Assembly: GCA_022771695.1 (NCBI GenBank)
Contig: JALEKJ010000058.1
Coordinates: 1-64,000 of the forward strand
DNA from: Roseburia sp.
Lineage (GTDB): Bacteria > Bacillota > Clostridia > Lachnospirales > Lachnospiraceae
DNA: 64,000 nt
Direction: 5' to 3'
The notes below the pieces were generated by a model. That model had not been told where the DNA came from and did not search any database. It saw only the letters and a program-made list of their open reading frames with translations. Position numbers and translations under genes: made by a program. This document shows, piece after piece, positions 25,275-64,000 of this stretch (its first letter is position 1; every line of letters begins with the position of its first letter).

Positions 25275-26759
25275 ATGGATATCAATCAAAAAAAAGAATT
25301 TGATTTATACAAGGACATTCAGAACCGCACCAACGGTGAAGTATATCTGGGAATTGTCGGTCCCGTCCGAACAGGAAAATCTACTTTTATCAAGCGCTTT
25401 ATGGATTTGATGGTATTGCCGTTTATGGAGGATGAGCATACAAAAGAGCGGACGATTGATGAATTGCCGCAGTCTGCACAGGGAAAGACTATCATGACGA
25501 CAGAACCCAAATTCATTCCGAAGGATGCCGCAGAAATTGTACTTCCTGATGATACAAAGGTAAAAATACGCTTGATTGATTGTGTGGGCTTTATGGTAGA
25601 CGGAGCCACCGGACACATGGAGGGTAACGCAAGCCGTATGGTAAAAACCCCATGGTTTGACTATGAGATTCCATTTGTGGAGGCAGCCTCCATTGGAACA
25701 GAAAAAGTAATCAGAGGTCATGCTACGATTGGAATTATAGTGACCACGGATGGTTCTATCGGTGAACTGGAGCGAAGCAGCTACATAGATGCAGAGGAAA
25801 AGACGGTACAGGAGCTGGCCGAAATCGGAAAACCATATGTCATTGTGTTAAATTCGAAGAAGCCATACAGTGACGAGACGACAAAGCTGGTTGACGAGCT
25901 GAAAGAAAAGTATGGAACAGCGGTTATTCCGGTGAACTGCGAGCAGATGCGCAAGGATGATGTCTATCGCATATTGGAGAGTATCTTGTATGAATTTCCG
26001 GTTGTGCGGGTAGAATTTTTTATCCCGAAGTGGGCAGAAATGCTAGAGACCACACATCCGATGAAAGCAGAAATCATAAAAATGGCAGCAGACATTCTTG
26101 GAAGTATGCGAAAGACCAAAGATGTTTACGCACAGAGTTTTGCACCGGAGCAGTATGTGTCAAGAGTTAAGGTGGAAGAATTAGACCTGGCAAGCGGATG
26201 TGTAAAAATCTGCATGGACGTTGCAGAAAAGTATTATTACGAGAATTTGAGCGAATTGGCAGGTGTGCCGATTTCCGGAGAGTATGAGCTGATTGCGTTG
26301 ATCAAGGAGATGGCAGAGCGCAAGGAATCCTACGAAAAAGTGGCAGATGCGTTTGAAGCGGTACAGGTGAAAGGCTATAGTGTAGTAGGCCCCGGGCTTT
26401 CTGATATCAAGATGGAAGAGCCGGTATTGATTCGCCACGGAAATAAATTCGGTGTAAAGATGCGGGCGATTTCGCCATCCATACATATGATTAAAGCAAA
26501 CATTGAAACAGAAATCGCGCCGATTGTGGGAAGCGAAGAACAGGCAAACGATCTCATCTCTTACATCAGGCAGGGACAGCAGAGCGAGGAAGGCGCCTGG
26601 GAGACAAATATCTTCGGAAAATCCGTCGGAGAACTGATGGAGGACGGTATTCGTAATAAAATAGCGATGATGGATGATGAATGTCAGATGAAATTACAGG
26701 ATACCATGCAGAAAATTGTCAATGACAACAATGGCGGAATGGTATGCATCATCATTTAA
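25275..26759 (+). CDS. spoIVA: Stage IV sporulation protein A
   Basis: A 494-residue ATPase that polymerises on the forespore surface as the basement layer of the spore coat. It starts MDINQKKEFDLYKDIQNRTN, and Walker A is GPVRTGKSTF (residues 29-38); the C-terminus ends in hydrophobic GGMVCIII, needed for membrane contact in the known protein. Length matches the family. Shows that the organism carries endospore genes. Its stop codon shares bases with the stop codon of the convergent unknown gene. Confidence 0.97.
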   Translation: MDINQKKEFDLYKDIQNRTNGEVYLGIVGPVRTGKSTFIKRFMDLMVLPFMEDEHTKERTIDELPQSAQGKTIMTTEPKFIPKDAAEIVLPDDTKVKIRLIDCVGFMVDGATGHMEGNASRMVKTPWFDYEIPFVEAASIGTEKVIRGHATIGIIVTTDGSIGELERSSYIDAEEKTVQELAEIGKPYVIVLNSKKPYSDETTKLVDELKEKYGTAVIPVNCEQMRKDDVYRILESILYEFPVVRVEFFIPKWAEMLETTHPMKAEIIKMAADILGSMRKTKDVYAQSFAPEQYVSRVKVEELDLASGCVKICMDVAEKYYYENLSELAGVPISGEYELIALIKEMAERKESYEKVADAFEAVQVKGYSVVGPGLSDIKMEEPVLIRHGNKFGVKMRAISPSIHMIKANIETEIAPIVGSEEQANDLISYIRQGQQSEEGAWETNIFGKSVGELMEDGIRNKIAMMDDECQMKLQDTMQKIVNDNNGGMVCIII

Positions 26760-41205: not shown

Positions 41206-41488
41206 TAACAAGAAAAACCGTTGAGAAAGAGTAGTAGGCATCTATTTGATATTACAGAGAGCTGCAGGTGGTGGAATTGCAGTATGGAGAGAGTTGCTGA
41301 ATGGACTTTTGAGGGCGACCTGAACCAGAAGCTGGTGTAGGAGTCGCCGGGAACCGGACCCGTTATCCATCCGGCGTGTATGTTAGTACATGAATGAGTG
41401 GGCTATTGATAGTCAAGATGAGTGGTACCGCGATAATAACCAGTTTATTACCGTCTCAGACAAGAACATTGTTTGAGACGGTTTTTTT
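41206..41488 (+). promoter_or_regulatory. T-box riboswitch, tryptophan specifier
   Basis: This fills most of the 395 non-coding bases before the lipoprotein gene. Stem I shows AGAGAGC and a GGTGG-type terminal loop. The invariant T-box sequence TGGTACCGCG is at 41423-41432. The terminator is CCGTCTCAGACAA (41451-41463) with TTGTTTGAGACGG (41469-41481) plus T run. The specifier loop reads GAA-TGG-AC, placing TGG (Trp) at 41302-41304. Uncharged tRNA-Trp would stabilise the antiterminator and turn on the transporter. Specifier placement is by eye and fits the genes downstream. Confidence 0.9.
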
Positions 41489-55786: not shown

Positions 55787-56887
55787 TTAGGACTCTACCG
55801 CGTGAAGTAGACATGCTAAGAGCTTGTCATTGTCTTCCGGATTCATGAAACAGAAACGGACATACTTATTGTCAAGGAATGGGAAGGTGGAACAGTCACG
55901 AATCATCATCTTTTCACGGATTGCGAGGTCAAAAAGATCTTGTGATGTAAGGTCATCTTTTAAAATGCGCACTAAGATAAAGTTTCCGCTTGGTTCGTAC
56001 ACCTTAAAGTCAGGATGCTTCTTTAAGATATCATAGATACGCGAACGTTCACCGGAAATCAACTCTTTGGTTGCCTTAATATATGTGGTGTCTGCGAACA
56101 TAGTCTCTCCGGCAACGACAGCGAGAGAGTTAATGGTCCATGGATTCTTTCGCGTATTAATTGCCTTGATTAAATCCCGGTTACCGGTAATTGCATAGCC
56201 GAGGCGAAGACCCGGGGCAGCAAAAAATTTGGAGGTGCCGCGCAGGATAATGATATTATTATAGTAGTTCGTAAGTGGAACAGCAGATATTTCGTCCATG
56301 TTGTCCGCAAATTCGACATAGGTCTCATCTACCATGACATAGATGTCGTGCTGTTTACATGCGTCTAAAATATAGCGCATCTCTTTTCTGGTAATGGAGG
56401 ATGAAGTAGGGTTGTTCGGATTACAAACTACAAGCAGGTCAATGCTTTCATTCAAATGTGAGAGAAAATCTTCCACATCCAGACGGAAGTTGTCCTTTTC
56501 GCGGAGCGGATAATACAAAGTCGTACCACCGCCTAATGCAATCTCGCGCTCATATTCCGAGTAGGTGGGACCAATGACAAGTGCTTTCTTTGGATGTTCG
56601 ATTTGGATAAAAAGTGAAATAAGCTCGGTAGAGCCGTTACCAACGATGACATGCTCCGGTTCTGTGTCACAATAGGTGGCAATGCATCTGCGCAGAGAGG
56701 TATATTCTCTGTCAGGGTAAGACGTAATGACATCAATCTTTTCTGCTAGCTCGCCGCGCAAGAGTGGCGATACGCCAAGTGGATTTACGTTTGCCGAGAA
56801 ACTCACGATATCCTCTTTGTGAATGCCATAAATCTCTTCTATTTTTTCTAAATCACTTCCGTGAAAGTGGTCTTTGTGTTTTAGCAT
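55787..56887 (-). CDS. Class I/II aminotransferase-fold enzyme, CobD/HisC type
   Basis: A 366-residue PLP enzyme. The start MLKHKDHFHGSDLEKIEEIY with SFSANVNPLGVSPLL resembles threonine-phosphate decarboxylase CobD; VVCNPNNPTS, MVDETYVEFAD and the lysine in RGTSKFFAAPGLRLGYA are common to CobD and histidinol-phosphate aminotransferases. No cobalamin or histidine genes are near, so the function is open. I chose the ATG at 56887 with GGAGG upstream; an upstream TTG would overlap that site. Confidence 0.82.
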   Translation of the reverse strand: MLKHKDHFHGSDLEKIEEIYGIHKEDIVSFSANVNPLGVSPLLRGELAEKIDVITSYPDREYTSLRRCIATYCDTEPEHVIVGNGSTELISLFIQIEHPKKALVIGPTYSEYEREIALGGGTTLYYPLREKDNFRLDVEDFLSHLNESIDLLVVCNPNNPTSSSITRKEMRYILDACKQHDIYVMVDETYVEFADNMDEISAVPLTNYYNNIIILRGTSKFFAAPGLRLGYAITGNRDLIKAINTRKNPWTINSLAVVAGETMFADTTYIKATKELISGERSRIYDILKKHPDFKVYEPSGNFILVRILKDDLTSQDLFDLAIREKMMIRDCSTFPFLDNKYVRFCFMNPEDNDKLLACLLHAVES

Positions 56888-56964
56888 TGATAACTCCTCC
56901 AAATTAGTTTATAATCTATTATAGTCATTGCGGATAAAAAAGCAATAGAAAAGCAGGTGTCGAT

Positions 56965-59900
56965 TTGCGTAAACGGATACAGCAGCTAGCAAGAGGAAAG
57001 TTCGAATACGCCAGACCACTTCTTTCATTTTCGACGGATAAGGTTGACATTGAGGTGTTAGAAGGCAAGGACTACACGGGAGATTTTGTCATAACCAGTG
57101 CGAATCGTGTGCCGATGCGGGGGATTATCTATACCTCGAATGAGAGAATGGAATGTCTGACTCCTCAGTTTGAAGGGGAAGAAGTACGGATTCGGTATCA
57201 ATTTCACAGCAATGGATTAGTGGAAGGGGATATTCAAAAAGGTGAGTTTTATATTATCTGTAACCAGGGAGAATATAACCTTTCTTTTGTTGCGTCCATT
57301 TCTAAATTGTATGCCGAGGCATCTACAGGGAAAATCCGTAACCTAAATGATTTTGCAGAACTCGCAAAACATAGTGCAGCGGAAGCGCAGCATCTGTTTT
57401 ATTCGAAGAATTTTAAGAACATATTAAAGCCGGAAGAAGTGCGGGAACGCCTTTTGTATGAAGGCTTGAGCAAAGGTCCTGTATCAGGACAGAAGGTCGA
57501 GGAGTTCCTGCTTGGTATACACAAGAAGAACCGGGTAGAAGTCAAAGCGGAAGATACTACAGCGGAATTCTACGAAGTGACGGAGTCACGGAAAGAGACA
57601 TTAAACCTACAGCGCAAGCATTGGGGGTATGTTGGTATTAAGGTGAAGTCTGACGCTGATTTCCTTGTGCCGGTAAAGCCATATCTGACCGAAGAGGATT
57701 TTATCGGAAGTGTCTGCCCATTTGAGTATTATATCAGAGAGGATGCACTGCATGCGGGAAAGAATTTTGGGAAGCTGATATTTGAGATGCCCGGCAGTGA
57801 GTTCTCGTTTGAGGTTTGTGCTTCCCGGACGGTGAGAAGAGAGGGCTTGGTTCGGTCGGAACATCGGGAGATATGTGAGGGTAAGGCACGCCTGATGAAG
57901 CTTTACATGGATTATCGTCTGAAGAAAATTGTGACCGGCGCATGGGCAAACCAGTCAATTGAGATATTGGACCATATGATGGCTATCGAGCCGGACAGAG
58001 AGATTTATCCGTTGATGAAGGCACAGGCGCTGATTGTGAATAAACAGCGGCAGGAAGCTTCGTGGATTATGGAAGATTTCAAGCGTGGATGTACGAACCG
58101 GGAGACTCCGGAGTGGGGATATTATTTGTATTTGTGCACACTGGTAGAGCGAGAACCGTCTTATGTGGACCGGATGGCGGAGGAGATAGAAATCCTTTTT
58201 AAGAAAAATTCGGATAGTTCGCTACTTTTCTGGGTGCTTTTGTTTGTCCGGGATTCGTATTACCGCAACAATGCAAGACGCTACAAGGCAATCGAACAGT
58301 GGGTGGCGATGGGGAATCATAGTCCGTATCTGTATTTGGAGGCATATTATCTGCTTTGGCAGGACCCTTATCTGTTGGGAAAGCTGGGCAGTTTTGAGAT
58401 AGCGGTACTTAACTGGGCGAGAAAGCAGGAAGCGATTTCCAAGGATATCGCACTTCAGGTCATGCATGCTGTGACGGATTTACGTGAATTTGACTTATTT
58501 GTATATCATATACTGGAAGAATGTTATCGTGTGAATGCTAAGGATGAGATGCTGGCAGTAATCTGCGGCTATCTGATTAAAGGGCAGCGTTATGAACACT
58601 GTTACCATAAATGGTATGAGCTTGGTATTGAACATGAAATCCGCATTACCGGTCTCTATGAGGCGTATCAGATGTCATTGGACGGCAGTCAGATAGGTAA
58701 TGTTCCAAAGATGATACAAATGTACTTTCAGTATGATAGCGCGTTGCCATATCAGCAGAAAGCTACGCTCTTTGTGAATATTATTGCCGGAAGGGCACGA
58801 CAACCGGAGGTGTATCAGAAATATCGCAGAGCGATGGAGCAGTTTGCAATGGAGCAGATTGAAGCGGGACATATCGGAGACAATCTGGCAATCATTTATG
58901 ATGAGATGCTCCGGGCAGGTGTCCTGAATCAGGAACTGGCGTATCGTCTGTCAGATATTCTTTTTGTGCATAAGCTTACCTGTATGGACAAACGTGTTTC
59001 GCAGGTCCAGATTTGGCACAAGGAGTTAGCAGAGCCACAGACGGTTCCGGTAGTAAATGGCAAGGCGTACTTTGCAGCATACACAAAGAACTACGTTATT
59101 GTACTTGAGGACACCGAAGGAAATCGTTTTTGTGAGAGTATCGCATGCCAAGATGAAGCACTGATGCATCCTGCGGCGTACATAGAACGTTGCCTCTCCT
59201 TTGCACCGGATGAATGGTCATACGCACTTTACTGGTTTGGCGAAAGGGGTAAATTACAGGAAACCGTAGAGGAGAGAGAGCAATACTTCGCTGTATTGCT
59301 TCAGGAAAAGCAGATTAGCACAGTATTTAAACAGGACCTTCTGTTGGAATTACTGTTTCGTTATCAACGGAGAGAGTATGATTTCTCACTCAAAGATAAT
59401 GCGTTGAATCAATATTTGGGGGAAGCGGACCTTGGAACAATGTATGTCTCTGTCAGACGGCGCTTAGCTGAACTGTTGACAGAAGCGCATCTCTATGAGA
59501 AAGCATATCGTATGGTGCAGTTGGATGGTTATGACTATCTTGGCAATGCCGCGCGTGTTGCACTTTGTAGCTATGCGATTACGAATATCAGTTTCGAGGA
59601 GGATGATTTTCTGTTGGGCTTTGCAACCAGTACTTTTTTGCAGGATAAGTATAATGATGTTATTTTGATTTATCTGTGTAAGTATTATAATGCGGCAACG
59701 AAGATGATGGCAAAACTTTGGCGGGCAGCCGGAGAGTTTCAGATTGATACCTTTGACTTGGAGGAACGCATTTTAACGCAGATGCTTTATACGACGGATT
59801 ATACACCATATGCTGAACAGATATATGACAGCTACTATGCAGGTGGCGGCAGAGAACTTATTTGTCTGGCATATCTGTCCTATTTTGCCAACAGTTACCT

Positions 59901-60519
59901 GCGGCAGGATGCACTGGTTCCGGGGCATGTATTTATACAGATTCAGGAGCGTTATCTGGCAGAACAGGAATTAAATGAGGCGTGTCGTCTGGGACTACTA
60001 AAGTACCTGGCAGAGAAGAGCAGTCTTACCGAGAAACAAGTACAGATTGCGGATGCGCTGCTTGCAGAATATGTGGCAAAGAACATTTGCTTTGAGTTTT
60101 ATCGAAAGTTTGACCGTAAACTTATTTTGAAGTACCATCTGTATGATAAGTTTTTCTTAGAATATCATTCAGAGCCGGGCAAACGGGTCAAGGTGAATTT
60201 TCGTATGGATAAGGGCTCTTATCAGACGGAAGACTTGGTCGAGATGTATGACGGTATTTATGTCAAAGAGTTTATATTGTTCTTTGGAGAGACTGTGCAG
60301 TATTATATTACAGAGGCAGAAGGGATGGAGTCGGCTGTTATTGAGAGCAACTGTATCAGCAATAATGATGTGCTTGAGAATGACAATCAAGGGCGCTATG
60401 TCATGTTGAACGAGATGCTTTTACAGGATACTCTGGGTGATGAAGGGCTGTTAAAGCGTCAGATGAAGAATTATTACGGTATGACAAAAGTTACGGAAGA
60501 AGTATTCAAATTGTTATAG
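56965..60519 (+). CDS. Giant scaffold-like protein, DUF5717-like
   Basis: An 1184-residue protein with no signal peptide or membrane helix. Residues about 20-115 look like a beta-sandwich (VDIEVLEGKDYTGDFVITSA, EGDIQKGEFYIICNQGEYNL), and a second beta domain lies near 215-290. Residues about 300-1060 are helical-repeat like (IEILDHMMAIEPDREIYPLM, KAQALIVNKQRQEASWIM). A beta-rich C-terminus follows (RVKVNFRMDKGSYQTEDLVE). It begins with TTG at 56965, with AGGTG six bases upstream. I connect it to DUF5717 from memory of Lachnospiraceae annotation; function unknown. It leads a four-gene cluster with an Hsp70-like gene 19 bases downstream. Confidence 0.72.
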   Translation: MRKRIQQLARGKFEYARPLLSFSTDKVDIEVLEGKDYTGDFVITSANRVPMRGIIYTSNERMECLTPQFEGEEVRIRYQFHSNGLVEGDIQKGEFYIICNQGEYNLSFVASISKLYAEASTGKIRNLNDFAELAKHSAAEAQHLFYSKNFKNILKPEEVRERLLYEGLSKGPVSGQKVEEFLLGIHKKNRVEVKAEDTTAEFYEVTESRKETLNLQRKHWGYVGIKVKSDADFLVPVKPYLTEEDFIGSVCPFEYYIREDALHAGKNFGKLIFEMPGSEFSFEVCASRTVRREGLVRSEHREICEGKARLMKLYMDYRLKKIVTGAWANQSIEILDHMMAIEPDREIYPLMKAQALIVNKQRQEASWIMEDFKRGCTNRETPEWGYYLYLCTLVEREPSYVDRMAEEIEILFKKNSDSSLLFWVLLFVRDSYYRNNARRYKAIEQWVAMGNHSPYLYLEAYYLLWQDPYLLGKLGSFEIAVLNWARKQEAISKDIALQVMHAVTDLREFDLFVYHILEECYRVNAKDEMLAVICGYLIKGQRYEHCYHKWYELGIEHEIRITGLYEAYQMSLDGSQIGNVPKMIQMYFQYDSALPYQQKATLFVNIIAGRARQPEVYQKYRRAMEQFAMEQIEAGHIGDNLAIIYDEMLRAGVLNQELAYRLSDILFVHKLTCMDKRVSQVQIWHKELAEPQTVPVVNGKAYFAAYTKNYVIVLEDTEGNRFCESIACQDEALMHPAAYIERCLSFAPDEWSYALYWFGERGKLQETVEEREQYFAVLLQEKQISTVFKQDLLLELLFRYQRREYDFSLKDNALNQYLGEADLGTMYVSVRRRLAELLTEAHLYEKAYRMVQLDGYDYLGNAARVALCSYAITNISFEEDDFLLGFATSTFLQDKYNDVILIYLCKYYNAATKMMAKLWRAAGEFQIDTFDLEERILTQMLYTTDYTPYAEQIYDSYYAGGGRELICLAYLSYFANSYLRQDALVPGHVFIQIQERYLAEQELNEACRLGLLKYLAEKSSLTEKQVQIADALLAEYVAKNICFEFYRKFDRKLILKYHLYDKFFLEYHSEPGKRVKVNFRMDKGSYQTEDLVEMYDGIYVKEFILFFGETVQYYITEAEGMESAVIESNCISNNDVLENDNQGRYVMLNEMLLQDTLGDEGLLKRQMKNYYGMTKVTEEVFKLL

Positions 60520-60538
60520 ACACCAGAGGGATAATGCA

Positions 60539-61783
60539 ATGGAAAACCATTTCTATCTTGGCATCGATCTGGACGACCAGAATGCGGTGATTAGCTTTTA
60601 TGAACTGAATATGAAAGAGCCGGAGACGCTTAGTATGGTGACAGGAAGCGAAGTTTATCAGATTCCGGTATTGCTTACCAAGAAAAAAGGAATCGGACAG
60701 TGGTTCATCGGAGAGGAAGCCGGACGCCTTGCGATACATCAAGGAGAGGAAGGGACGGCGAAGCTTTTAACCCGTGCCTTAAAGAAGGAAATGGTTTATG
60801 TGGATGGTGAGCGCTATCCTGCAGGTGAGCTTTTATGTCTTTATTTAAAAAAGTTACTTCTTCTGGCGGGAAGCTTAGGAAAAAGTCAGCGCCCGGATAA
60901 ACTGGTTGTTTGCTTGGATAAGCTTTCGCGGGAAGTGATACAGTTGTTTGCAGAAATTACACCGAAGCTTGGATTGGATGAAAAACAGGTTACGATGCTT
61001 GACCGCAAGGAATGCTTTTACTATTTTGCTTATCATCAATCAAAGGACCTGACGCTGCATGATGTGTATCTGTTTGACTATCGGGGGGAAGATGTGCGTT
61101 GCTGCAGACTGATAAAACATCAGAATACAAAGCCACAGCTTGTTACACTTTCGGAAGAAGTGCGTAGAATCGGGGAAAACAGTAAGGATGAATCGTTTTT
61201 GCGTATTTTAAAGGATTGTTTTGCCGGACGAATTGTGTCGTCTTCCTATCTGACCGGAGAGGGCTTTGATGGTGGATGGCTGAAGCAGGCGGTTTCATTT
61301 TTATGTCAGGGACGCAGGGCATTTTTAGGGAAGAATCTTTATTCCAAGGGTGCCTGTTATGCCGCTGCCGTGCTGGATGGACAAAAGGAATGGCAGTATG
61401 TCTATCTCGGTGATAATGAGATGAAGGTCAATGTCAGTCTGAAAATTTATAACAAAGGGTCTATGGAATTTTTGACATTGATTAGTGCCGGAGATAATTG
61501 GTATGAGACAGTAGGAGAATGCGAAGTCATCTTGGATGGAACACCGGAGATTGCGTTCTGGCTGCAGTCGCCGAACAGTAAGAATGCAAAAATTGAGCGC
61601 TTAGAGCTTTCCGATTTGCCAAAGCGTCCGAATAAGACAACGAGGCTTCGCATTGTCGCGAAACCACTGTCAGATGCGAGGGTCCAGATACAGATTCGAG
61701 ACCTTGGGTTTGGAGAGATTTTTAAAAGTTCTGACAAGGTATGGGAGTATGTGATGTCATTTACGGAAGACAGGGAGGGCTAG
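60539..61783 (+). CDS. Hsp70/actin-fold protein, DUF5716-like
   Basis: A 414-residue protein. The N-terminal half shows an ASKHA ATPase layout: phosphate-1 YLGIDLDDQNAVISF, phosphate-2 VYLFDYRGEDVRCC, and adenosine-type loop SSYLTGEGFDGGWL followed by NLYSKGACYAAAV. The last 140 residues are beta-rich (VSLKIYNKGSMEFLTLI, RLRIVAKPLSDARVQIQI), like a substrate-binding domain. It is shorter and more diverged than DnaK. The next gene starts one base after its stop. A chaperone-like or polymer-forming role is inference; the DUF5716 link is from memory. Confidence 0.75.
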   Translation: MENHFYLGIDLDDQNAVISFYELNMKEPETLSMVTGSEVYQIPVLLTKKKGIGQWFIGEEAGRLAIHQGEEGTAKLLTRALKKEMVYVDGERYPAGELLCLYLKKLLLLAGSLGKSQRPDKLVVCLDKLSREVIQLFAEITPKLGLDEKQVTMLDRKECFYYFAYHQSKDLTLHDVYLFDYRGEDVRCCRLIKHQNTKPQLVTLSEEVRRIGENSKDESFLRILKDCFAGRIVSSSYLTGEGFDGGWLKQAVSFLCQGRRAFLGKNLYSKGACYAAAVLDGQKEWQYVYLGDNEMKVNVSLKIYNKGSMEFLTLISAGDNWYETVGECEVILDGTPEIAFWLQSPNSKNAKIERLELSDLPKRPNKTTRLRIVAKPLSDARVQIQIRDLGFGEIFKSSDKVWEYVMSFTEDREG

Positions 61784-61784
61784 T

Positions 61785-62597
61785 ATGGGAGAGTTGATTT
61801 TATGCAACCAGATGTTAGCTGCGCTTCCGTATTATATTGAAGAAGCGGCTTTAGGCATTTATTCGTTAGAGGAATTGAGCTATTACATTGAGAACAACCT
61901 GTATCTTCTGGAAGCGAATTTTATGAGTGAGGAGCTGTGTACGTGGATAGACAAAGAGTTGCAGCTTCACGAAGCTGCAGCAAAACTACGGGAAATCTAT
62001 CGAGGAGATGGGACGCTTTCAGAATTCGTGGAGTGTATCTTAAAGCAATCCGGTTATCTAAGTACAGCACAGATACAACAGATTGTTAGGGCGCTAAAGG
62101 ATATGGAGAACAAATCCGAGTTTGAGTGTATCAAGATGAAAGCAGACCGTTATGTCGAGAATCATCGCTATATCAATGCAATTTATGAGTATTGTAAACT
62201 TCTAAGCATGAAAGATGAGCCAAATGAGATTTTGATTGGAAATGTATGGCATAATCTGGGATGCGCATATGCAGGATTGTTCTTGTTTCGTGAGGCTGCT
62301 GTGTGTTATAAGCACGCCTATGAGTTAAATGAGAATCCGGAGTCTATGCGGGAGTGCCTGTATGCCTACCGCTGTATGCATGATGGGCAGGGGTTCCGCG
62401 AGACGGCAGCAGAGCTTGATGTGGATGAGGAAATGCTTCTTGATATCGGAAGAATATTGAATGAAACGAGCAGAATGGAGGATATCTGTCAATTTGAGCA
62501 GAGCTTGGAGGAATTGTTCGCAATGGAAAAAGAACAGGAAATTGGTGGGATTGTGACGGAGTGGAAAGATACCTATCGAAAAAATTGCAGAATATAA
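61785..62597 (+). CDS. TPR-like helical protein
   Basis: A 270-residue soluble protein. Residues about 115-190 look like tetratricopeptide repeats (ADRYVENHRYINAIYEYCKL, WHNLGCAYAGLFLFREAAVC, YKHAYELNENPESMREC). The N-terminal part is helical and acidic. No enzyme motif was found. It lies one base after the Hsp70-like gene and 11 before the coiled-coil gene, so it is part of the same unit and may be the co-chaperone or adaptor. Confidence 0.75.
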   Translation: MGELILCNQMLAALPYYIEEAALGIYSLEELSYYIENNLYLLEANFMSEELCTWIDKELQLHEAAAKLREIYRGDGTLSEFVECILKQSGYLSTAQIQQIVRALKDMENKSEFECIKMKADRYVENHRYINAIYEYCKLLSMKDEPNEILIGNVWHNLGCAYAGLFLFREAAVCYKHAYELNENPESMRECLYAYRCMHDGQGFRETAAELDVDEEMLLDIGRILNETSRMEDICQFEQSLEELFAMEKEQEIGGIVTEWKDTYRKNCRI

Positions 62598-62608
62598 GGA
62601 AGTAACAT

Positions 62609-63775
62609 ATGTTTTTTTGGAAGAGGAAAAAAGAAAAAAGTTTTGAAAAAAAGTTTGGCGAGTTGGAAGCAACCGTACTTTCGGAGAAAGATTATAAGAA
62701 CACACGAAAAATTGAACAGTATGTGGTAGAACGCTTAGAGCAGATGATTGAGCTGACAAAGGAAATCGAGGATGAGAAGTCAGAATATCGCATGGTGACA
62801 TCCTATCTGAATGATATCCAGTTGCTTGAGGAGATGCCGGAAGAAGAACACAAGAAGATTGAGGAAATTGCGGTCAATGTGGTGCAGTTGAATGCTGCGC
62901 GTACGGAGTTTTTAAATTCAGCCAAGAAGCTTTCTGACGCACAGTTTGCGCAGCTTGAACAGATGGAAGCAGAGATGCCGGTAGCCATCAAACGTTTGTC
63001 TGCAAATGAAATGTACCGGGATACCTTACAAAAAGATATGAAGTATCTGGAGCGCGAGAAGTCTGAGTGGGTGCTTCGCAAGGAGTATCTGACTCATCAG
63101 ATGAGTCGGTTGCGATATCTCCTATACGTCATGGTCGGTGTTGCTGCGACGGCAGCGGTGGTGATTGGGATGCTGCAGATTGTTTTAGAGATGGATATGT
63201 TCTATGGCTGGATGGGCTGGATTTTTGCTACGGCAATTCTTATCTGCGCGATTTATCTTCGCATGCAAAGCGATCGTGAAGAAATTGCGCAGGCAGAGCG
63301 TTGCCAGAATCGTGCAATCCTGCTGCAGAATAAAGTCAAGATAAAATACGTTAACATAGAAAATGCTGTGGAGTATGCATGTGAGAAATATCATGTGGAG
63401 AGTGCGGCAGAACTCAATCAGCAGTGGGAATATTATCTGGAAGCAGTAAAAGAACGTGAGAAATATCAACGTACGAATGAAGATTTAGAGTACTTTAAGG
63501 GGAGATTAGTGCGCGTTCTGTCGCAATACAAGTTTTATGACGCGCAGGTTTGGGTGACACAGGCACTTGCACTTGTTGACCCGAAAGAGATGGTAGAGGT
63601 TAAGCATGGGCTGATTAACCGCAGACAGAAGCTTCGAGGAAGAATCGAGTATAATATGAACATCGTAAAAGAGCAAAAAACGGAAGCGGAGCAGCTATTA
63701 GATAAGGTTGGCGATATGCGTCCGCAGGTTGAGCAGATTTTATTTGCAATTGACAAGCTGAGTGAAAACCAATAA
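62609..63775 (+). CDS. Coiled-coil membrane protein
   Basis: A 388-residue protein starting MFFWKRKKEKSFEKKFGELE. Residues about 40-165 and 225-385 are long charged helices likely to form coiled coils. Two membrane helices lie at about 170-193 and 199-217, so both arms would face the cytoplasm. No known family. Fourth gene of the Hsp70-like cluster, and the only one with a membrane anchor. The cotJA-like gene starts 70 bases downstream. Confidence 0.75.
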   Translation: MFFWKRKKEKSFEKKFGELEATVLSEKDYKNTRKIEQYVVERLEQMIELTKEIEDEKSEYRMVTSYLNDIQLLEEMPEEEHKKIEEIAVNVVQLNAARTEFLNSAKKLSDAQFAQLEQMEAEMPVAIKRLSANEMYRDTLQKDMKYLEREKSEWVLRKEYLTHQMSRLRYLLYVMVGVAATAAVVIGMLQIVLEMDMFYGWMGWIFATAILICAIYLRMQSDREEIAQAERCQNRAILLQNKVKIKYVNIENAVEYACEKYHVESAAELNQQWEYYLEAVKEREKYQRTNEDLEYFKGRLVRVLSQYKFYDAQVWVTQALALVDPKEMVEVKHGLINRRQKLRGRIEYNMNIVKEQKTEAEQLLDKVGDMRPQVEQILFAIDKLSENQ

Positions 63776-63845: not shown

Positions 63846-64000
63846 ATGAGAAACTATACGATGCCGCAAACTGCAGAACGCGGTTGTGGACGTAGAACTG
63901 AAACGTCTTTTACTAGAGATGAATACGTACTTGCGATGGCATATGTGCCATGGCAGTACTTTACAAACGTATATGAACCGGATAAGGCCCTTGAGATAGG
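63846..64000 (+). CDS. cotJA: Spore coat protein CotJA-like, 5' part only
   Basis: ATG at 63846, preceded by AGAGAGGA, opens a frame that runs off the window. The 51 visible residues include FTRDEYVLAMAYVPWQYFTN followed by VYEPDKALEI, the conserved CotJA pattern. In Bacillus it is a small inner-coat protein made in the mother cell, normally followed by cotJB and cotJC. A weak sigma-E-like -10 (CATAGAAT, 63807-63814) lies upstream, without a convincing -35. Confidence 0.85.
   Translation, partial: MRNYTMPQTAERGCGRRTETSFTRDEYVLAMAYVPWQYFTNVYEPDKALEI

Follow-up and report, generated by a model that had tools for sequence, protein, structure and literature searches.

Near the end of a 64,000-nucleotide stretch of DNA from Roseburia sp. 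(GenBank assembly GCA_022771695.1, contig JALEKJ010000058.1, positions 1 to 64,000 of the forward strand; hereafter the window) lie four adjacent genes, p1 to p4, which encode a giant scaffold, a protein of the Hsp70/actin fold with a beta tail, a protein of the tetratricopeptide repeat (TPR) type and a coiled-coil membrane protein. The organism belongs to the Lachnospiraceae, one of the dominant families of butyrate formers in the gut of humans and animals. As judged from gene content and protein sequences, comparison with other families of the order shows the composition of a larger operon, with four Hsp70-like proteins (A to D) and a long GrpE-type protein, in which p2 corresponds to the B type; A, C, D and the GrpE-type gene are lost at the Lachnospiraceae loci examined and p1, p2 and p3 are retained. 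The interpretation that we tentatively prefer, short of holding it to be probable, is that the cluster may represent a dedicated multi-Hsp70 machine in the reduced state seen in the Lachnospiraceae, with p2 as a membrane-anchored pseudo-Hsp70 hub similar to Ssz1.

In the predicted structure p2 carries the Hsp70 fold, an actin-like nucleotide-binding domain (NBD) followed by the beta part of the substrate-binding domain (SBD-beta). The SBD-beta half is retained and was folded confidently in the model, and the last helix ends at residue 279, so that there is no C-terminal helical lid; a median of 164 residues follows the adenosine motif in p2 proteins compared with 306 in DnaK. DUF5716_C is recognisable in all 68 p2 proteins considered (the window protein and 67 of its 80 named relatives, to which all counts out of 68 refer). 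The catalytic residues were numbered as in E. coli DnaK and were mapped through the DnaK of the window's own genome. Lys70, Glu171, the Thr-Thr pair of the first phosphate loop and the GGGT loop are each present in none of the 68, Thr199 in three and Gly342 in one; Gly341 is present in every one. The position of Asp8 is occupied by aspartate in 54 and glutamate in 14, and that of Asp194 by aspartate in 32 and glutamate in 23, leaving it acidic in 55 of the 68. An earlier, sequence-only reading of this DNA had described p2 as an ATPase and had named loss of the ATP-site residues across the family as what would count against its proposal; with these four elements missing throughout, the residues are lost and the description as an ATPase is not supported. 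The distance between the phosphate-2 and adenosine motifs is 60 to 75 residues in 68/68 p2 proteins and 71 to 72 in L097 and L098, two divergent members of the family, compared with 133 to 152 in 13 B proteins, 139 in the B protein of a sister locus (L079) and 143 in the genome's own DnaK. The stretch of approximately 80 residues that is missing is, by our own assignment, presumably subdomain IIB. A passage of PMC10825016 describes this subdomain of Hsp70 as the one that nucleotide exchange factors bind and rotate.

Outside the Lachnospiraceae, within the same order, DUF5716_C matches were found in paired Hsp70-like genes of about 520 and 550 amino acids (aa). The full operon there consists of p1 (whole or split in two), Hsp70-A (about 557 aa), a long protein with a GrpE domain (about 560 to 645 aa), Hsp70-B (457 to 565 aa), Hsp70-C (about 545 aa), Hsp70-D (about 690 aa) and a TPR protein of 382 to 393 aa that is the ortholog of p3; an ortholog of p4 is present in four of the 18 loci read, followed by ValRS in three. 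Four clean Hsp70 frames are found in 13 of these 18 loci, and it is to these 13 that the residue and tree counts for A to D refer. L079, kept apart from those counts, has the same gene order with its Hsp70-D, GrpE-type and TPR genes broken into short frames, and the other four are without the full set, the parts being dispersed in L084 and L086 and partial in L095 and L096. Three further loci (L193 to L195) have the same gene set wherever they are not cut by the ends of contig or locus. At L094 the Pfam HSP70 domain is matched by A (E 1.8e-77), C (E 2.5e-57) and D (E 2.5e-95), while B matches both DUF5716_C (E 1.8e-25) and HSP70 (E 1.9e-16), the long protein carries a C-terminal GrpE domain (E 1.4e-14) and the p3 ortholog contains many TPRs. 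Hsp70-D of this locus, the only D protein scanned, is fused to a vWA domain (E 1.3e-10), in which a DTTGSM motif can be read by eye (L094:9518-11674).

Paralogs A, C and D retain Asp8, the Thr-Thr pair, Lys70, Glu171, Thr199, Asp194, the GGGT loop and Gly341/Gly342 in 13/13 cases each. In the B paralog Lys70, the Thr-Thr pair, the GGGT loop and Thr199 are found in none of the 13, Glu171 in one and Asp8 in 12, from which the catalytic lysine appears to have been already gone in the B-type paralog before p2 arose. An IQ-TREE phylogeny (78 proteins) places A, C and D each in a group of its own, and B together with p2 is split from A, C, D and DnaK by a branch with support of 100/100; L079 B joins all p2 proteins at 100/99. 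The tree carries a long-branch warning (for L097, L098 and L095 among others), and without p2 the B proteins do not form a single group. Alignment of p2 with B (hhalign) gave a probability of 100% with E 2.6e-52 over 417 columns. Together these comparisons of sequence show p2 to be derived from the B-type, second paralog of the full operon. The operon evolves at two speeds, since mean pairwise identity over the 13 full loci is 70% for A, 68% for C and 70% for D, compared with 31% for B, 29% for p3 and 24% each for the GrpE-type protein and the main p1 frame; the slow Hsp70 parts have been lost and the fast parts kept in the family.

The frames of the 80 named and 21 other Lachnospiraceae loci contain no match to A, D or the long GrpE-type protein, and the latter had no full-length match in 60 genomes of the family. 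A partial match in a 538-aa frame of one genome (G327, one of four in the family without a p1 match) was dropped because at its locus (L191) the cluster genes are absent, apart from a 298-aa end frame with weak p3-type similarity (E 1.4e-9). Five other weak matches, with frames of 206 to 245 aa, were limited to the C-terminal GrpE domain and were taken as ordinary GrpE; in the sample of the class, two matches likewise covered the C-terminal GrpE part only. Some Hsp70 match was found in 59 of 60 family genomes, generally DnaK and often a further one, with extra frames of about 560 to 660 aa in many. Twenty such extra places were fetched from 19 genomes, of which 19 gave Hsp70 frames and one a longer unrelated frame. 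These 19 scored at most 323 bits against the A, C and D profiles, compared with 801 to 1074 bits for undoubted copies, and none fell inside the A, C or D group in a quick FastTree with five rows per group. As both the loci and the fetched Hsp70s were negative, loss of A, C and D is shown for these samples rather than for every genome, and the base of the family is covered by L097 and L098, which are early-branching or divergent, and the sister locus L079. We read the disappearance of the GrpE-type gene and of the IIB stretch, its lobe, in one and the same family as a putative coupled loss.

The cluster is near-core in its family and, apart from one weak match, confined to its order. DUF5717_N, the N-terminal family of p1, was found in four of 299 genomes sampled across the phylum, all four from the Lachnospiraceae, and in 196 of 200 genomes of that family, each from another genus (163/165 of those of good quality). 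A wider p1 profile matched ten of 245 genomes of the class, nine in the family and one, weakly, outside it; the weak match outside the order is in G639 (E 2e-4), and a further weak one within the order is in G555 (E 3e-4). Among 116 genomes of the order, the 59 with DUF5716_C all lie within the 63 with p1. Of the four with p1 only, G540 and G561 have the operon with a divergent B, G501 ends before B and G555 is the weak match. In one family of the order (f126) the parts are often on different contigs (in G500, G521 and G592, for example), but genomes that have p1 also have the Hsp70-like genes. The 80 named-relative loci, kept from 365, come from Lachnospiraceae, Roseburia, Agathobacter, Kineothrix and Lachnotalea, with some named only as Clostridiales, Eubacterium or bacterium; the nearest is a Roseburia, with 54% identity in p2, and it is by these names that the family sampled here is identified as Lachnospiraceae. 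They contain p1 in 79, p2 in 80, p3 in 78 and p4 in 71, several of the contigs ending early. In 21 loci (the window and 20 that are mostly the best p1 matches, thus not a random sample) p1, p2 and p3 are adjacent and colinear in all 21 and p4 follows in 15, well beyond what chance would give. Frequent separation of the genes in relatives, which the sequence-only reading had named as a further ground against itself, is therefore not what is seen in the family.

A phyletic profile against sporulation and motility genes had been suggested with the same proposal, and it links the cluster to neither. SpoIVA was detected in 135 of the 200 family genomes (E 0.001), 134 of them over the cut-off. Over these 200, p1 and SpoIVA occur together in 133, p1 alone in 63, SpoIVA alone in two and neither in two, leaving 63 of 196 p1-bearing genomes without a SpoIVA match. 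For FliG_N, found in 34 of 60 genomes, the corresponding numbers are 33, 25, one and one, so that 25 of 58 p1-bearing genomes are without it. Both links were rejected on these counts.

The model of p1 (pLDDT 87.2, pTM 0.57) bears out the layout of beta and helical-repeat domains that had been described for this 1184-residue protein: two PapD/ASH/MSP-like beta-sandwiches, two alpha-solenoid stretches, two further beta domains and a C-terminal helical hairpin. The VIA-align list for p1 is dominated by the N-terminal beta domains and barely tests the remainder. The structure alignment contained the window p1 and 53 of the 80 named relatives, and an alignment of 16 p1 proteins was too divergent to serve as seed for a scan of the named genomes. 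Sequence search against solved structures gave for p1 a weak TPR match to GmaR (7x9s, E 0.0064) and three others with E >0.2, and for p2 no match. In one order family (f144; G531, which is L081, G562, G571 and G590) p1 is a single frame of about 1330 aa, and many other related genomes have for it a frame of about 890 to 930 aa, preceded, where read, by a separate beta-domain frame of about 390 aa. Pfam assigns p1 to DUF5717_N (E 5.4e-278) and DUF5717 (E 1e-96) and p2 to DUF5716_C (E 5.7e-106); p3 gave only weak, sub-cut-off TPR matches to a single repeat, p4 matched no family over the cut-off, and an NCBIfam scan of the window proteins gave nothing useful. In 17 family members p3 is 249 to 299 aa long, compared with 382 to 393 aa in the full-operon orthologs. 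Hydrophobic segments in the window proteins number two in p4 and none in p1, p2 or p3. Among 70 relatives of p4, 55 have two, eight have one and seven have three; at least one segment (a single borderline one or more) is found in 6/70 relatives of p1, 18/78 of p2 and 0/78 of p3, and those in p1 and p2 relatives we take to be buried strands or helices.

The four open reading frames stand where the sequence-only reading had placed them, on the + strand with gaps of 19, 1 and 11 bases (Table 1), and encode the four kinds of protein that it had listed. Its suggestion of one transcript is plausible, the genes forming a conserved unit; no terminator-like site was found on the + strand between the cluster genes (four lie inside p1), and promoter-like sites in the region number 12 compared with 14.8 in shuffled sequence, which is not above chance.

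Table 1. Genes, domains and sites of the cluster, in window coordinates.
Feature	Position	Strand	Remarks
p1	56965..60519	+	DUF5717 scaffold, 1184 aa, TTG start
p2	60539..61783	+	DUF5716 pseudo-Hsp70, 414 aa; predicted NBD fold missing subdomain IIB, with SBD-beta and no lid
p3	61785..62597	+	TPR-type protein, 270 aa; shortened ortholog of an approximately 387-aa multi-TPR protein in related families
p4	62609..63775	+	Coiled-coil protein, 388 aa, with two-helix membrane hairpin (residues 171-189, 197-215)
Promoter-like site TTGATA-17-TATAAT	56887..56915	+	Before p1; 11/12 consensus positions
p1 residues 19-114, first PapD/ASH/MSP-like domain	57019..57306	+
p1 residues 188-288, second beta-sandwich, probably like the first	57526..57828	+
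p1 residues 296-662, alpha-solenoid (TPR-like)	57850..58950	+	From the structure model; weak sequence similarity to GmaR 7x9s
p2 residues about 205-217, site of the approximately 80 missing residues equivalent to Hsp70 subdomain IIB	61150..61190	+	From motif spacing; place approximate

The description of the cluster as a dedicated machine is supported. In the mechanism that we tentatively propose, p4 would anchor the assembly at the inner face of the membrane and the p1 scaffold would hold p2 and p3. On this view p2 would no longer cycle nucleotide and would work in the manner of Ssz1, as a lid-less Hsp70 on which a canonical Hsp70 docks. In the full operon this partner may be A, C or D, together with the operon's own GrpE, and in the Lachnospiraceae it may be the housekeeping DnaK/GrpE, recruited for membrane-proximal clients; in the window's genome DnaK is the only full-length canonical Hsp70 that is a candidate partner. 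Several observations weigh against this proposal. The contact between p2 and DnaK is something that we purely infer, and with an Hsp70 beyond DnaK in many genomes of the family DnaK would not be the sole possible partner. None of the 68 p2 proteins matches Pfam HSP70 at E 0.01, and comparison of the p2 profile with Hsp70-A alone gave a probability of 16% (E 0.0016), so that p2 is tied to Hsp70 through the B intermediates and by its fold. The matches listed for ten operon proteins (seven of L094, p1 of two other loci and one more GrpE-type protein; for the TPR protein the best 25 of 32) include no J-domain, which leaves the analogy with Ssz1 short of a J partner among these proteins. In the family p1 to p4 have mean identities of 33, 37, 31 and 37% (17 loci), which is fast and unusual for a chaperone hub. 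The acidic residues at positions 8 and 194 would still allow p2 to bind nucleotide. Finally, p4 was not found after p3 in 6/21 and 9/80 loci, several of the nine being cut contigs.

The strongest rival is structural reuse, in which the four proteins, once their chaperone partners were lost, would have come to form a solely structural, nucleotide-independent complex under the membrane, such as an envelope, division or cytoskeletal scaffold, with p2 as a building block instead of a co-chaperone. We consider this rather unlikely, although much of the above is consistent with it: the ATPase residues and the IIB stretch have been lost, the folds of the scaffold, PapD/ASH/MSP-like and solenoid domains, are common in structural assemblies, p4 has a two-segment membrane hairpin, and the genes are retained in 196/200 genera irrespective of sporulation and motility. 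A mere spacer, on the other hand, would need neither the confidently folded SBD-beta nor the DUF5716_C that every p2 keeps, and the order-wide relatives are clear chaperone sets. Stated as history, it would mean that the family started from a membrane chaperone machine with four Hsp70s, GrpE and vWA, discarded all its ATP-driven parts and the exchange factor, cut the exchange lobe from the one pseudo-Hsp70 left and turned the dead core into a near-indispensable, nucleotide-independent structure under the membrane, which is conceivable and, in our view, doubtful. On that reading the full operon of the sister families would represent a novel class of machine built on several Hsp70s. It would seem less likely again that p2 is a nucleotide sensor or switch, binding without hydrolysis while p1, p3 and p4 relay its state, for example in a membrane stress response. 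The mostly acidic positions 8 and 194 and the invariant Gly341 would suit such a role, but Lys70, the Thr-Thr pair, the GGGT loop and, in all except one protein, Gly342 are gone and the lobe that closes over the nucleotide is missing.

Membership in a conflict or defence system of the NTP-dependent, GAP1-N2 GTPase-centric kind with HSP70, GrpE and TPR proteins is improbable to a high degree. Passages of PMC7159879 set out an HSP70-GrpE theme in firmicutes and actinobacteria, and the fast evolution of p1, B, the long GrpE-type protein and p3 relative to the slow A, C and D would fit it. Against it, the GAP1-N2 domain was found in 0/16 genomes with the cluster, the control (Corynebacterium glutamicum) being positive, the four window proteins have no PADLOC match and the distribution over 196/200 genera is not patchy; on the first two of these grounds membership was rejected. 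The PADLOC model PDC-M61B does match Hsp70-A (E 4e-5) and Hsp70-D (E 1.7e-6) of L094, both in the general Hsp70 domain.

The cluster stands directly before cotJA, as had been described, the start of this gene at 63846 being 70 bases past p4. Across the 80 named loci cotJA is found near the cluster in eight and cotJB in ten; the recurrent neighbours, which we take from their sequences to be a HisC/MalY-like aminotransferase, RarA, ValRS, FolC, PurF and PurB, are presumably housekeeping genes. That p1 to p4 make a coat or cortex machine of sporulation, as the cotJ neighbourhood might suggest, is scarcely credible with most loci lacking cotJ nearby, housekeeping neighbours recurring and a third or so of p1-bearing genomes (63/196) without a SpoIVA match. 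The genome itself has sporulation genes, including a SpoIVA gene inside the window (about 25275-26759). Directly past the window end (L038:324-416 and L038:452-1936) cotJC stops after about 31 codons and is followed on the other strand by a large serine recombinase; it looks as if a mobile element has inserted in a sporulation gene. A tblastn search with the cotJC of one relative found nothing else in the window or the remaining 15.3 kb of the contig. In Roseburia hominis An869 (L121:12600-12836) cotJC is truncated too, after about 60 codons and at a different place. Elsewhere in the window a T-box leader RNA lies at 41212-41461 on the + strand.

A cluster present in 98% of the sampled genera for which no published function was found marks a gap in what is known of how Lachnospiraceae cells work at a basic level. 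The comparison with related families offers a testable case of machine evolution, in which ATP-driven members (68 to 70% identity) were lost and fast partners (24 to 31%) kept. With it DUF5716 gains a superfamily, Hsp70, and DUF5717 an architecture.

As the sequence-only reading had supposed, no assigned function for the cluster turned up in literature searches: in the open-licence literature no paper was found on DUF5717 and none of relevance on DUF5716 (one match, on curcuma), and the cluster is absent among the matches listed for multi-Hsp70 clusters and family signature genes. Its proteins p1 and p2 are members of Pfam PF18984, PF18983 and PF18980 (DUF5717_N, DUF5717 and DUF5716_C), far above the gathering cut-offs; these entries give no function, and here DUF5716 is placed in the Hsp70 superfamily and linked with a larger operon. 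The nearest theme in print is the HSP70-GrpE group of the GAP1-N2 systems, which passages of PMC7159879 (eLife 2020) describe as an HSP70, GrpE, a second HSP70 without peptide-binding domain and an FNIII protein with TPR or DnaJ. The full operon resembles these systems in its HSP70, incomplete second HSP70, GrpE, TPR or beta-repeat proteins and membrane parts, and differs from them in having four Hsp70s, while the cluster is near-universal in the family; HSP70, GrpE and TPR genes stand together in the full operon outside the Lachnospiraceae but not at the Lachnospiraceae loci. The full operon shares with DnaK-GrpE-DnaJ the tested ATPase residues, which A, C and D retain, and a C-terminal GrpE domain in the long protein, and is unlike it in having a scaffold and TPR protein in place of the J-protein, a vWA fusion and four Hsp70s per operon, while the Lachnospiraceae cluster differs further in being reduced to a pseudo-Hsp70. 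A parallel to p2 is Ssz1 of the yeast ribosome-associated complex (RAC), which passages of PMC8476630 describe as binding ATP with little or no hydrolysis, lacking SBD-alpha and, as a stable subunit of its complex, docking a canonical Hsp70 through its NBD. Like Ssz1, p2 is lid-less, has lost the ATPase residues, retains SBD-beta, matches in fold and would be part of a complex. In contrast to Ssz1 and RAC, p2 is bacterial and is missing subdomain IIB, no J-domain partner is among the matches listed for the ten operon proteins, and the cluster includes a membrane hairpin protein.

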